DNA of 64,000 nt, taken from positions 62,001 to 126,000 of the forward strand of contig CACJWN010000001.1 in the NCBI GenBank assembly GCA_902597175.1, written 5' to 3'. Below the pieces are notes generated by a model. That model made no database searches, was not told the DNA's origin, and saw only the letters and a program-made list of their open reading frames with translations. This document shows positions 7,445 to 30,996 of the stretch, piece by piece. Position 1 is the stretch's first letter, and the number at the start of each line of letters is the position of its first letter. Origin of the DNA: an uncultured Pelagibacteraceae bacterium. Its GTDB lineage: Bacteria > Pseudomonadota > Alphaproteobacteria > Pelagibacterales > Pelagibacteraceae. The translations under genes and the position numbers were made by a program.

Positions 7445-8420
7445 AAGTTATATTTTAGAACAAGATGTTAATTCAATTGATGAAAAAATAGCTTTATTTT
7501 ATGGTGTGAATTTAGGATTAAAAAACGATCTAAAAGTAAAAATTATAGAAAATAACAAAAATTCTGAAATTTTAAGGTATACACAAGACGAACTTTTAAA
7601 AGATAAAGCCCTTTTAGAAAATGAAATTAAAAATATCTCGTTATTTGAAAAAAAAAAGATTTTTTTTATTGAAAATGTAAACGATAAAATCTTAGAGCTA
7701 ATTAAAGAATTCGAAATTATACCGTCAGACAGAAAAATTTTTTTATTCTCAGATATTTTAGACAAAAAATCTAAATTGAGAAACTATACAGAAAAATCAA
7801 AAGAATGTGCATGTGTTGCCTGTTATGAAGATAATGAAATGAGTATTAAAAAATTAATTAATTCAAGACTTAGTGGCTTTAGCGGATTGTCTCCTTATAA
7901 TATTAACTTAATAGTAGAGCATACAAACCTAGATAGATCAAAACTAAACAATGAATTAGATAAAATCATATCATGTTTTTCAAGTAAAAATATTCTTACC
8001 GAAAAACTTGAAGTGCTTCTTAACGCTAAAGTAAATACTGATTTTAACAAACTTAATGATGAGGCATTTTTAGGAAATAAAGTGAACACAAATAAATTAT
8101 TAGCACAAACAGGGATGGATAATGAAAAGAATATATTTTATTTAAATATTATCAATCAAAGGTTAGAGAAACTTCGACAAATAAACAATTCTAATAAATC
8201 AACTATAGAAGTCGCAATTAATAGCCTAAAACCACCTATATTTTGGAAAGATAAACCAAACCTTACAAATCAAGCCAAAAAATGGGATAAATTCAAAGTC
8301 CAAAAAATGATAAATTTAACTTATAACTTAGAAAAAAAAATAAAAAGAGATAATCTAATCGATAAGAATATATTAATTAAAAAATTACTCGTTGATATTT
8401 GTTCATTGGCTAATTCTTAG
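7434..8420 (+). CDS. holA: DNA polymerase III subunit delta
   Basis: FYGVNLGLKNDLK...ENEIKNISLFEKKKIFFIENVNDKI; synteny leuS-lptE-holA. Confidence 0.8.
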   Translation: MIYKSYILEQDVNSIDEKIALFYGVNLGLKNDLKVKIIENNKNSEILRYTQDELLKDKALLENEIKNISLFEKKKIFFIENVNDKILELIKEFEIIPSDRKIFLFSDILDKKSKLRNYTEKSKECACVACYEDNEMSIKKLINSRLSGFSGLSPYNINLIVEHTNLDRSKLNNELDKIISCFSSKNILTEKLEVLLNAKVNTDFNKLNDEAFLGNKVNTNKLLAQTGMDNEKNIFYLNIINQRLEKLRQINNSNKSTIEVAINSLKPPIFWKDKPNLTNQAKKWDKFKVQKMINLTYNLEKKIKRDNLIDKNILIKKLLVDICSLANS

Positions 8421-9264
8421 TTAATAAATCTGAAATTAATTCAAACTGATCCAAGTCTTTATACTGAATTGTTATCTTGCCAGAGTTATTTTTTTTATTA
8501 ATAATATTAACTTTAAGTCCTAATATTTTTTCAATTCGCTCCTGAGTTTTGAGAATATTTGTATCTATGGTTTTTTCCTTATTGTTACTCTTTTTATTTC
8601 TAGTTAAATATTCAACTTTCCTAGCACTATAATTCTTTGAAACAATTTCCTCTGCAATAGATGATGCATTTTGAATTCCAATCAAGGGCCTAGCTTGACC
8701 CGAAGTTAAAGTACCCTCTTCCAGCATTGCAATAACGTCTGAAGGTAAAGTTAATAATCTTAAAGTATTACTGATATGACTTCTACTTTTAGACATTAGT
8801 TTTGAAATATTTTCATGATCATAATTGAATTCGTCATTTAACCTTCTATAGCCTCTAGCTTCCTCTATTGGATTCAGATCGTCTCTTTGAATATTTTCAA
8901 CTATTGCAACTTCTAAAGACTCTACATCGCTTAAATCTAGAATTGTTACTGGTATCTCGTGTAAGCCAGCACGTTGTGCAGCAAGCCACCTTCTTTCGCC
9001 TGCAACTATTTCATATTTTCCATCTCCTGACTTATTTGGTCTCACAGCTATTGGCTGTATAATCCCATTTTTTTTTATTGAATTAGCTAATTCCTCAAGT
9101 TTTTCTTCACTGAAACTCTGTCTTGGCTGATATGGATTTCTACTTAAGTCACTAATAGATATTAAATTGGACTGCTTAAATTCTTTAGGTTTTTCAGGAG
9201 TTTTTTGATCTCCGAATAATGCTGATAGACCTCTACCTAAACCCTTTTTTTTTCCGGAACTCAT
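8410..9264 (-). CDS. parB: Chromosome partitioning protein ParB
   Basis: KKGLGRGLSALFG; NPYQPRQSFSEEKLEELANSIKKNGIIQPI; GERRWLAAQRAG. Confidence 0.97.
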   Translation of the reverse strand: MSSGKKKGLGRGLSALFGDQKTPEKPKEFKQSNLISISDLSRNPYQPRQSFSEEKLEELANSIKKNGIIQPIAVRPNKSGDGKYEIVAGERRWLAAQRAGLHEIPVTILDLSDVESLEVAIVENIQRDDLNPIEEARGYRRLNDEFNYDHENISKLMSKSRSHISNTLRLLTLPSDVIAMLEEGTLTSGQARPLIGIQNASSIAEEIVSKNYSARKVEYLTRNKKSNNKEKTIDTNILKTQERIEKILGLKVNIINKKNNSGKITIQYKDLDQFELISDLLTKN

Positions 9265-10067
9265 GCTGCACTCTCTATATTGCTATTTTTTATAAATTCC
9301 TCAGCAAGCTTAAAATACGATTTACTCCCTATACAATTTTTATCGTAAATAACGCAGGGCAAACCGTGAGATGGAGCCTCTGATAATCTTACATTCCTTT
9401 GAATAACTGTTTGATAAACTTTTTCTTTAAAGTAATTTCTTGCTTCTTTATCAACCTGAGAAGACAGTTTATTTCTTTTATCAAACATTGTTAATAATAT
9501 TCCCCTAATCGTTAATGATGGATTTAGATTTTCTTTAATTCTGTCTATTGTTTTCACAAGTTGGGTTATTCCTTCTAAGGCAAAGAATTCAGTTTGCAGT
9601 GGTACTAACAACTCATCTGATGCTACTAAAGCCATTATTGTTAAAAGACTTAATGACGGAGGGCAATCTATAAATATATTATCATAATTATTAAGTAATC
9701 CGTTCTTCTCAGCAGATAGAATTTCTTTTAATACAAATGCCCTGTTCGAGTCATTAGCTGTTTCAACCTCAAGTCCAGATAAATTTACGTGAGAACCAAT
9801 TAAATCTAGATTTTTTATTTCGGTTTTTTGAATTGTTTCTTTAATATTAATTTTTTTTATTAAAAGATTATAAATATTTTTTTTCTCTTCACTGTTGCTC
9901 TTACCTAAGCCTGTTGTTGCATTGCCTTGTGGATCTAAATCTATAATTAAATTATTTAGACCCAAAATGGACAGTGATGCAGCTAAATTTATTACCGTGG
10001 TAGTTTTGCCGACTCCACCTTTCTGGTTAATTACTGCTAATGTTGTCGGTCTTGTCATTTTTTTCAA
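9261..10067 (-). CDS. parA: Chromosome partitioning ATPase ParA/Soj (start may be Met at 10058)
   Basis: VINQKGGVGKTTTVINLAASL deviant Walker A; DLDPQGNATTGLG. Confidence 0.97.
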   Translation of the reverse strand: MKKMTRPTTLAVINQKGGVGKTTTVINLAASLSILGLNNLIIDLDPQGNATTGLGKSNSEEKKNIYNLLIKKINIKETIQKTEIKNLDLIGSHVNLSGLEVETANDSNRAFVLKEILSAEKNGLLNNYDNIFIDCPPSLSLLTIMALVASDELLVPLQTEFFALEGITQLVKTIDRIKENLNPSLTIRGILLTMFDKRNKLSSQVDKEARNYFKEKVYQTVIQRNVRLSEAPSHGLPCVIYDKNCIGSKSYFKLAEEFIKNSNIESAA

Positions 10068-10671
10068 TTTCCATCAAAATTATTTTTGATTTAGCATTTG
10101 TTATACTATTTACTAATTTATAAGAATATTTTTTAATTTTTAAAGTTTTATTTATCTCTTCCTGTGCATTTTGACCCTTCAAAATCATCAATTTATGTGG
10201 CTTTTTAGCGATTTCACGTGAAACTTGTATTACTTGCTCCAACTTTTTAAAAGCTCTGCACACAATTATATCAGCATCGAGGACTTCTTCTCTCACATCA
10301 CCATAAACTTCAGCATTTAAATCTAATTCCTTAATAACCTTACTTAAAAACTGCCTTTTAACTGGTGATTTTTCATACAATTTCACGTGAAAATCCTTAT
10401 ATTTATTGAATATTTCTATAATTAATCCTGGAAATCCTGCTCCAGATCCTAAGTCTGCTAAAGAAGTTAATTTAAAATCAATAAATTTAACTAATTGGGC
10501 CGAGTCTAAAATGTGCCTTTCCCAAATTGAAGATTCAGTACTTTTTGCTATTAAATTATGATTTTTATTTTCATTTAATATTAATTCGACAAATTTTTTT
10601 AGTTTTTCAATAGACCTATCGTTAAAATTAAGGTCTTTTTTTAAAATACTTATAACTTCAAGCTGCTGCAT
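10027..10671 (-). CDS. rsmG: 16S rRNA (guanine527-N7)-methyltransferase
   Basis: NLIAKSTESSIWERHILDSAQL; LADLGSGAGFPGLII; gidB position. Confidence 0.95.
   Translation of the reverse strand: MQQLEVISILKKDLNFNDRSIEKLKKFVELILNENKNHNLIAKSTESSIWERHILDSAQLVKFIDFKLTSLADLGSGAGFPGLIIEIFNKYKDFHVKLYEKSPVKRQFLSKVIKELDLNAEVYGDVREEVLDADIIVCRAFKKLEQVIQVSREIAKKPHKLMILKGQNAQEEINKTLKIKKYSYKLVNSITNAKSKIILMEIEKNDKTDNISSN
10210..10225. promoter_or_regulatory. Candidate parS site 1
   Basis: GATTTCACGTGAAACT: 13/16 match to the parS consensus TGTTTCACGTGAAACA, inside rsmG next to parAB. Confidence 0.8.
10379..10394. promoter_or_regulatory. Candidate parS site 2
   Basis: AATTTCACGTGAAAAT: 12/16 match to the parS consensus; same 12-bp palindrome core TTTCACGTGAAA as site 1. 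Confidence 0.7.
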
Positions 10672-28317: not shown

Positions 28318-28898
28318 TTTTTATATTTATTAATATAGTTGATAATATCTTTAATAGGCAAACCCATAATTGAGTTGTGGTCGCCTTTTATATACTCAAA
28401 CAATTCCAAGCCCTCAGCTTCAACTTGATAGACACCATAAGCTAGTAAAGTTTCAGTCTTAATTTTATTTAGATAATTTAATAGTTTTTCATCAGTAAAA
28501 TTTTTCATTTTCAACTCAGAAGAGTCCGTATGATTCCAGACCATTGCTCCATTCTTAGAAATACACACAGAACTTATTAGGTAATGTTTAGAATTATTCA
28601 ACTTTTTTAAAATATCAAATGCCTCATTTCGATTTTTTGGTTTGTTAATCAGTTTGTTGTCTAAAGAAATTACACTATCAGCTCCTAGGACCATTATATC
28701 TGGATTTTTACTACTAACTTTAATAGATTTTATCTCTGCTAAATTTTTTGAAATTATCAATGGATCTGCTCCCTCGCTGAGAAGAGCTGCTTTTACTTCG
28801 TCTTCGTCTACGTTTGAAACAATTACATCAGCATCAATATTATTATCATCTAAGATCTTTTTTCTGACACCGCTTTTTGAGGCCAAAATTAATTTCAT
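28314..28898 (-). CDS. Maf-like nucleotide pyrophosphatase
   Basis: LILASKSGVRKKIL; VLGADSVISLDNKLINKP; GDHNSIMGLPI. Confidence 0.93.
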   Translation of the reverse strand: MKLILASKSGVRKKILDDNNIDADVIVSNVDEDEVKAALLSEGADPLIISKNLAEIKSIKVSSKNPDIMVLGADSVISLDNKLINKPKNRNEAFDILKKLNNSKHYLISSVCISKNGAMVWNHTDSSELKMKNFTDEKLLNYLNKIKTETLLAYGVYQVEAEGLELFEYIKGDHNSIMGLPIKDIINYINKYKK

Positions 28899-29713
28899 AT
28901 GTTTTTTTTAATTTCTATTATCTTTAATATAGACGCAGCTGTTTCTTCAACAGACCTTCTTGTAACGTCTATTATTGGCCAATTGTTTTTTTTAAAAAGA
29001 TTTTTTGAATCATTTACCTCTTTTTTAATAAATTCTAAATTTGTGTAATCTTTAATTTGATGTTCATTCATTATCGCAACTCTATTCCGTCTAATGTCTG
29101 CTAACCGTTCAGGATCAGCTATAAGACCAATAACGCAGGCTTTTGTTTTAGAATTTAATTTTGGTGGTATTTTATGGTCTAGTACTAAAGGTATATTTAT
29201 AGTTTTATATCCCCTATTAGCTAAATATATGGAGGTAGGTGTTTTACTAGTTCTGCTTACACCTAGCAAAATAACGTCTGCATCATTTATATCATCTACT
29301 TTCTTCCCATCATCATGTGACATGGTAAATTGAATAGCTTCTATACGTTTGTAATAATCATCATCTAATACGTGTTGTGCGCTGGGTTTATGAATTGCCT
29401 TTTGGTTAAGTAATTTTGAAAAACTTAAAATAAGATTCCCTAGAATGCCGAAACATGGAACCTTGTTTTTTTCAGCTTGATTTGAGATATATTTCGCCAG
29501 TTTAGTTTCAACTATTGTATATAAAATTAATGAGCTTTCTAGTCTTAAACACTCTTTAATTATTTTGTCTATCTGTTGTTCAGTTCTAACAAAAGCAAAC
29601 TCCCTTTTTTCATAATCAAAGTTTGAAAATTGTGATTTTAGAGAAAGAAATATTCTATCTAAAGTTTCGCCAGTAGAGTCAGACACAAGATATACATTGT
29701 ATTTTTGGTTCAT
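28895..29713 (-). CDS. Pyruvate phosphate dikinase regulatory protein (PpsR/DUF299)
   Basis: VYLVSDSTGETLDRIF; ILLGVSRTSKTPTSIYLANRGYKTINIPLV. Confidence 0.95.
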   Translation of the reverse strand: MNQKYNVYLVSDSTGETLDRIFLSLKSQFSNFDYEKREFAFVRTEQQIDKIIKECLRLESSLILYTIVETKLAKYISNQAEKNKVPCFGILGNLILSFSKLLNQKAIHKPSAQHVLDDDYYKRIEAIQFTMSHDDGKKVDDINDADVILLGVSRTSKTPTSIYLANRGYKTINIPLVLDHKIPPKLNSKTKACVIGLIADPERLADIRRNRVAIMNEHQIKDYTNLEFIKKEVNDSKNLFKKNNWPIIDVTRRSVEETAASILKIIEIKKNI

Positions 29714-29985
29714 ATGTGTGTTAATAAATAATTAATAAATAAATTTATTCACTTTTTAATTTACTAGAGTAAAAAAAATTAACATTAATTCACAATATTT
29801 AAACATTTTGTTAGATGTTAATAATGTTGTTTTACTAATGTTTACAAGATTAATAAAGTCTTCAAAATAGGACTTTTTGATGAAAGTTATTCATCTTTCT
29901 ATGTATAAAAATTGTATAAATAGTTATATGACTATTAAACAGGGTCAATTACTCAAACAATACTTTTAAAATACTTTTATATAAT
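29714..29985. other. oriC: Probable chromosomal replication origin region (oriC)
   Basis: Divergent, AT-rich ~270-bp gap between ppsR(-maf-aroE-coaE-dnaQ) and hemE(-hemH-rho), the gene context of oriC in Caulobacter and related alphaproteobacteria; contains TTAA-N7-TTAA and degenerate DnaA-box-like sequences. Confidence 0.7.
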
Positions 29986-30996
29986 ATGAGCAATCTTAAT
30001 AAAATCTTATTAAATAAAATTAATTGTAAATCTGTATGGTTTATGAGACAAGCAGGTAGGTACCTTCCAGAATTTCAAAGAATTCGATCTAAAAACCAAG
30101 ATTTTGTTAAATTATGCTTAAATAGTGAGTTGAGTTCAGAAATTACATTACAACCAATTGAAAGATTTGATTTAGACTCTGCAATTATTTTTTCTGATAT
30201 TTTGATGGTTCCTTACGCATTAGGGCAGAATGTAAAATTCACAAAAGGTTCCGGACCAAAGCTGAGTGATTTTAATTTAAATCAATTTTTAAAGAGTGAA
30301 GAAAATATTTTTTCCGATAAACTTAGTCCAGTCTACAAAGCAATAGATATCACAAGAAAAAAATTAAAAAAAAGTAAGTCGCTTATTTCTTTTATTGGGG
30401 CGCCATGGACTCTTATCGTGTACATGTTGAATGTTAAAGAGGATAAAGGAGAAATAAATCTACGAAAACTTCAAGATAAAAAAAAGGAACTCAATCAAAT
30501 AATAGAAACTTTAATCAACTTTTTGTGCATTCATATCAAAAACCAGATAAATGCCGGTGCAGATGTAATACAAATTTTCGACTCTTGGGCAGGCTTAATT
30601 CCCACAAAGAATTTAAATGACTATTGTTACACACCTAACGCAAAAATTTTGAATTTTTGTAGAAAACAAAAAATACCTACCATTTGCTTTCCTAAAGGAA
30701 TAAGAGAAAGATACGAAGATTTTAACGACATTGTTAAACCAGATGGAATTAATTTGGACCCAGACATCGATCCGGCATGGGCAAGAGAAAAGTTAAGAAA
30801 TGTAGTGATCCAAGGAGGTCTAAATCCCAATATATTATTAAAAGATGATGAAGATATTATTAAGGGGGCGACTAAATACATTCGAACTTTCAAGGATATT
30901 CCTTATGTTTTCAATTTAGGTCACGGGTTACTTCCTGAAACAGATCCTGATAAAGTAGGTAGGTTAATAAAATTTTATAGGAACTTTAATGGATAA
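29986..30996 (+). CDS. hemE: Uroporphyrinogen decarboxylase
   Basis: VWFMRQAGRYLPEFQRIR; IIFSDILMVPYALGQ; FNLGHGLLPETDPDKV. Confidence 0.98.
   Translation: MSNLNKILLNKINCKSVWFMRQAGRYLPEFQRIRSKNQDFVKLCLNSELSSEITLQPIERFDLDSAIIFSDILMVPYALGQNVKFTKGSGPKLSDFNLNQFLKSEENIFSDKLSPVYKAIDITRKKLKKSKSLISFIGAPWTLIVYMLNVKEDKGEINLRKLQDKKKELNQIIETLINFLCIHIKNQINAGADVIQIFDSWAGLIPTKNLNDYCYTPNAKILNFCRKQKIPTICFPKGIRERYEDFNDIVKPDGINLDPDIDPAWAREKLRNVVIQGGLNPNILLKDDEDIIKGATKYIRTFKDIPYVFNLGHGLLPETDPDKVGRLIKFYRNFNG

Follow-up and report, generated by a model that had tools for sequence, protein, structure and literature searches.

The mapped origin of Caulobacter crescentus and the predicted origin of Rickettsia are bounded by the same divergent gene pair, hemE and a COG1806 gene (PMC1914354), which makes the gap between ppsR, a COG1806 member, and hemE the expected site of the origin in this class. 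The predicted hemE/COG1806 origins of R. prowazekii and R. typhi are 383-384 bp long and 82% AT (PMC1914354). For strand opening, a basal unwinding system has been described that combines a DnaA box, across a spacer, with DnaA-trios; the published rule allows at most two mismatches in the box and 0-16 bp in the spacer and requires at least three trios (PMC8287927). SAR11 bacteria are among the most abundant in the ocean. Their genomes have been anchored by the coverage minimum, which marks the terminus (PMC9589681), and a base-level origin call would provide an anchor for metagenomic growth estimates derived from origin-to-terminus coverage.

The window analyzed here is a stretch of 64,000 nucleotides (positions 62001-126000 of contig C1) within a 988-kb draft genome, G000 (19 contigs, 86% complete); the named records related to it are genomes of uncultured Pelagibacteraceae (SAR11). 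A first-pass annotation of the window had predicted a replication origin in a very AT-rich gap between divergent ppsR and hemE genes, with ppsR-maf-aroE-coaE-dnaQ on its left and hemE-hemH-hemJ-rho on its right. This gene order was confirmed by Pfam (hemJ as UPF0093), as was the divergent arrangement, with PF03618 on the minus strand, PF01208 on the plus strand and 272 bp between them (Table 1). The 150-kb contig has 12 intergenic regions of 150 bp or more, and the gap, at 82.4% AT, ranks first among them in AT content. Its length is nearly constant: the 34 congeneric gaps measure 269-275 bp and 11 gaps from more distant relatives 267-289 bp, and the divergent pair recurs in 32 of 32 held-out gaps of 261-289 bp. 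In pairwise conservation the gap does not come first among intergenic regions and does not stand out, and an Rfam search of the window returned only a tRNA. We conclude, with a probability of about 0.93, that this SAR11 bacterium replicates its chromosome from an origin (oriC) in this gap, a prediction supported by the skew of related genomes, the proximity of parS and parB, and the enrichment of DnaA boxes in held-out gaps. As a separate observation, hemE in the closed genome G188 (C1:358203-359209) is apparently split by stops or a frameshift, yielding two overlapping partial matches.

Table 1. Features of the predicted origin and of the partition locus, in window coordinates.
Feature	Position	Strand	Remarks
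predicted oriC	29714..29985	.	ppsR/hemE intergenic region, divergent, 272 bp, 82% AT; basis: AT content, skew, parS, held-out motifs
ppsR (COG1806 / DUF299)	28895..29713	-	PF03618; left oriC boundary gene
hemE	29986..30996	+	PF01208; right oriC boundary gene
relaxed DnaA box TTATTAACA, ppsR-proximal (putative)	29719..29727	-	genus enrichment
degenerate DnaA-box-like TTATTCACT	29745..29753	+	TTTTYCAC block partly conserved in congeners
TTAACA / TTCACA / TAAACA phased repeats	29779..29805	+	starts 29779, 29789, 29800; spacing 10 and 11 bp; basis: conservation, periodicity
relaxed DnaA box TTATTAACA, central (putative)	29816..29824	-	genus enrichment
TTGTAAACA	29839..29847	-	one change from TTATAAACA, which most congeners have here; basis: alignment
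tandem TGTATAA repeats	29902..29919	+	11-bp period, starts 29902 and 29913
hemE-proximal element AACAGGGTCAATTAC	29938..29952	+	diverged TMACA-spacer-CTANTA; candidate DnaA-box / DnaA-trio unwinding module
parB + parA	8410..10067	-	parB 8410-9264 (ParB_N), parA 9261-10067; origin-proximal partition genes
parS-like site GATTTCACGTGAAACT	10210..10225	.	core TTTCACGTGAAA at 10212; inside rsmG
parS-like site AATTTCACGTGAAAAT	10379..10394	.	core TTTCACGTGAAA at 10381; inside rsmG

A GC-skew minimum located elsewhere in the chromosome had been named as the finding that would contradict this placement. The analysis was run on three closed relatives (G198, G409 and G193), where the skew switches at or near the ppsR-hemE gap, leaving the origin call standing. 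In G198 (1,199,990 bp, all 60 stretches included), the best origin/terminus split falls at 65/685 kb by third-position GC (GC3) skew, at 100/675 kb by GC skew and, judged by gene strand, at 25/675 kb. The raw GC minimum extends over a wide interval (20-100 kb), and the gap, at 66.8 kb, lies almost opposite the terminus. In G409 (1,308,759 bp, one-third sampled) the sample that contains the switch covers 327-347 kb, and the gap is at 335.5 kb. In G193, also sampled, the switch occurs between the samples at 218 and 291 kb, and the gap is at 234 kb. The resolution of these skew estimates is only tens of kb. The skew evidence for G000 itself comes from a single contig of the 19, whole-genome skew being taken from the relatives. 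On this 150-kb contig, which is only roughly consistent with the call, cumulative GC skew reaches its minimum 17 kb beyond the gap (108.7 versus 91.85 kb) and GC3 skew near the left end of the contig. The 325-kb contig of G079 behaves in a similar way: both contigs have a rough GC and gene-strand minimum 16-17 kb past the gap, without agreement from GC3. Contig-level skew in these two genomes is too noisy for placing an origin, and neither refutes nor proves the call.

The first-pass annotation had overlooked a mnmE-mnmG-rsmG-parA-parB block in the same window (13910-8410), which lies about 19.5 kb from the gap and includes two degenerate parS palindromes. The 12-bp core that these palindromes share is found at one site in the whole of G198 and at one site in the G079 contig, 8 kb and 18 kb from the gap, respectively. 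All 13 relatives searched (11 single-contig genomes plus the near-closed G380 and G407) have a site matching parS with 0-1 mismatches, approximately 6-9 kb from hemE in genus-g9 genomes and 17-19 kb from it in g4 and g8 (G179, G188). No perfect parS was found in the window's genus, in which parB lies about 20 kb from hemE where both share one contig. The par block is located on the ppsR side of the gap in G000 and G079 and on the hemE/rho side in G198, and has therefore been rearranged between genera. In G184 and G187 (genus g7), the only hemE homologue found is a distant one (30% identity) located far from parS, and the origin neighbourhood of this genus may be different.

Skew and parS data also bear on the placement of the origin beside dnaA/dnaN, as in many bacteria. 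These two genes share a contig with the gap, 73 kb away, and the broad skew minimum of G198 extends to about 100 kb, with dnaA at 129.5 kb. The GC3 switch in that genome, however, is at 65 kb and not at 129 kb, its parS core lies 8 kb from the gap and 54 kb away from dnaA, and the densest windows for the relaxed DnaA box TTATNNACA, described below, fall at the hemE gap. An origin beside dnaA/dnaN is accordingly considered very improbable.

The DnaA-box words examined in the ppsR-hemE gaps included the relaxed box TTATNNACA and the canonical box TTATNCACA, clusters of which were used in the Rickettsiales predictions. Because TTATNNACA had first been noticed by eye, before all NNNN-NN-NNN words were scanned, it was tested on held-out gaps. 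In the scan it ranked fifth in the genus gaps (62 instances versus 8.6 expected) and second among all 4-NN-3 words in the 11 more distant gaps (27 versus 4.1). The 32 held-out gaps contain 94 instances against 10.0 expected (maximum 19 in 200 shuffles), along with 29 instances of the canonical TTWTNCACA against 2.0 expected, and the tallies for TTATNNACA in the genus and in other genera are 76 versus 10.4 and 121 versus 14.2, although all these counts are made non-independent by shared ancestry, especially within the genus, and some held-out gaps come from close relatives of species already used. Ranked by TTATNNACA, the ppsR-hemE gap comes first of all 300-bp windows in the G198 genome. This pattern is difficult to accommodate if the gap is only the divergent promoter/operator of ppsR and hemE, with repeats that bind a transcription factor and an origin elsewhere in the same 100-kb neighbourhood. 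In favour of that reading, both promoters have to lie within the divergent region, the gap is not exceptionally conserved in pairwise comparison, and skew alone resolves just tens of kb. Against it, the enriched word is a relaxed DnaA box confirmed in held-out gaps, the word peaks at this gap in G198, and in other orders hemE and COG1806 flank origins that have been mapped or predicted (PMC1914354). A promoter region can, moreover, also serve as an origin, and we regard a promoter-only gap as unlikely.

The window's genus fits a hemE-COG1806 oriC by its place and its relaxed boxes, not by canonical boxes. TTWTNCACA is present in only 1 of the 34 gaps of this genus versus 25 of 42 in other genera, and the 272-bp gap of the window contains none of the canonical forms (TTATNCACA, TTATCCACA, TTWTNCACA); the annotation had correctly reported the absence of a perfect TTATCCACA box. 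Canonical DnaA-box density alone was rejected as an origin marker, being uninformative in this genus. The 34 congeneric gaps contain 42 copies of TTATTAACA (1.9 expected) and 28 of TTATAAACA (2.1 expected). The window's own gap has two relaxed boxes only, both TTATTAACA on the minus strand, which had initially been missed. Of the degenerate DnaA-box-like sequences that had been proposed, TTCACA is at the position given for it (29789-29794), and TTATTCACT is real but had been placed two bases off, at 29747-29755. In G000, domain IV of DnaA is conserved and aligns with B. subtilis DnaA over RDHTTVIHA, and the drift of the boxes would represent the same DnaA protein at weaker sites, if these motifs are, as we infer, DnaA sites. 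Neither the GANTC (CcrM) motif nor the IHF consensus WATCAN5WTR is enriched in the gaps, the latter being absent from the window gap and showing no enrichment in either the genus set or the other-genera set.

Phased repeats, also overlooked at first, are a second component of the gap. Seven-base direct repeats at spacings of 10 and 11 bp are strongly over-represented in the genus gaps (z = 13 and 24, respectively) and in other genera (z = 5 and 10), and in three genomes the gap falls within the top 0.04-0.15% of windows for such repeats. The TTAACA/TTCACA/TAAACA repeats could constitute a weak DnaA array, and the 10/11-bp phasing, as expected for such an array, can be interpreted as fitting DnaA molecules that sit next to each other along the same helical face. 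The interval 29779-29824 holds conserved TTAACA repeats in direct orientation and, after them, inverted copies (TGTTAA).

The third component is the hemE-proximal element. The general trio pattern (NAN x3) was excluded as evidence, since it was judged to be common by chance in AT-rich DNA, and the stricter form TMACA-N1-14-CTANTA was used on the held-out gaps, where it occurs in hemE-proximal position in 19 of 32 (0.2 expected). In G409, TTATTCACA is followed by ten bases and then CTA-ATA-CTA; in the relatives the element with its TTATTCACA-like box starts about 43-53 bp before hemE, and some of them (e.g. L111) match the box-spacer-trio rule by eye. The hemE-proximal element is a plausible candidate for the melting site.

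The first-pass annotation had also pointed to a CtrA-type box, TTAATAAATAATTAA, at 29721-29735. The sequence is present there; its reading as a CtrA site is unsupported, no CtrA having been found. The G000 draft encodes four OmpR-family regulators, namely PhoB, a ChvI-like and an OmpR-like protein (so named from their neighbourhood and their best partial hits) and a fourth whose receiver is degenerate, and none of the four exceeds the CtrA cut-off in this 86% complete draft; likewise, no ctrA ortholog is reported in Pelagibacter (PMC2877005). The window itself encodes, at 353-955 on the minus strand, an OmpR-type DNA-binding protein of 200 aa whose receiver domain is unrecognisable. A Caulobacter-type origin, in which CtrA control represses initiation through TTAA-N7-TTAA sites, would be favoured by the excess of this motif across the genus gaps, where 64 instances were found versus 17.9 expected (the palindrome being counted on both strands, in related species). 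The single instance in the window gap is nevertheless reached by 18 of 100 shuffles, and the signal in other genera is weak (7 of 100 shuffles). Given that no CtrA was found in the G000 draft and that Pelagibacter is reported to lack ctrA, TTAA-N7-TTAA is not evidence of CtrA control. The TTAACA array together with AT bias accounts better for the match in the window, and the array can also account for the excess across the genus gaps. CtrA control of the origin was rejected and appears highly unlikely.

In the mechanism that we propose for the ppsR-hemE origin, DnaA would bind the relaxed AT-rich boxes TTATTAACA/TTATAAACA and the helically phased weak repeats, and the resulting filament would open the very AT-rich DNA beside hemE, probably via the DnaA-box/DnaA-trio-like element. 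Helicase would be loaded after this opening on the hemE side, with CtrA presumably playing no part, and ParAB would partition the newly copied origins at parS sites some 20 kb away. A narrower proposal, against which we would set the odds somewhat, is that the window's genus has a CtrA-free origin that has lost its canonical boxes, in which a conventional DnaA reads weak, 11-bp-phased TTATWAACA-type arrays and a diverged unwinding element, using low-affinity sites only.

Compared with known systems, the SAR11 relatives resemble the basal unwinding system in having a TTATTCACA-like box that a short spacer separates from CTA/ATA/CTA triplets (3'-GAT-5' on the opposite strand), but the window's copy, AACAGGGTCAATTAC, is diverged and exceeds the two mismatches allowed in the box (PMC8287927). 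The predicted origins of Rickettsia share the same flanks and a nearly equal AT content with the SAR11 gap and are likewise predictions; they differ from it in length, the SAR11 family gap being shorter (261-289 bp), in including CtrA sites, no CtrA having been found in G000, and in the IHF consensus applied to them, which is not enriched in SAR11 gaps. Relative to Cori of C. crescentus, the G000 locus is far more AT-rich, lacks a detected CtrA, shows no GANTC enrichment and, as in its congeners, has boxes that are mostly TTATTAACA/TTATAAACA, whereas the divergent flanking genes, the AT-rich intergenic region and the DnaA-box-like sites are alike in both. The location of parAB near the origin in C. 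crescentus is a further feature in common. The SAR11 locus is very probably a known kind of origin whose details have diverged, with CtrA apparently absent and boxes drifted to weak AT-rich forms, and it would provide a naturally occurring example of an origin in the Alphaproteobacteria that works without CtrA and in which DnaA boxes have become weak under extreme AT bias.
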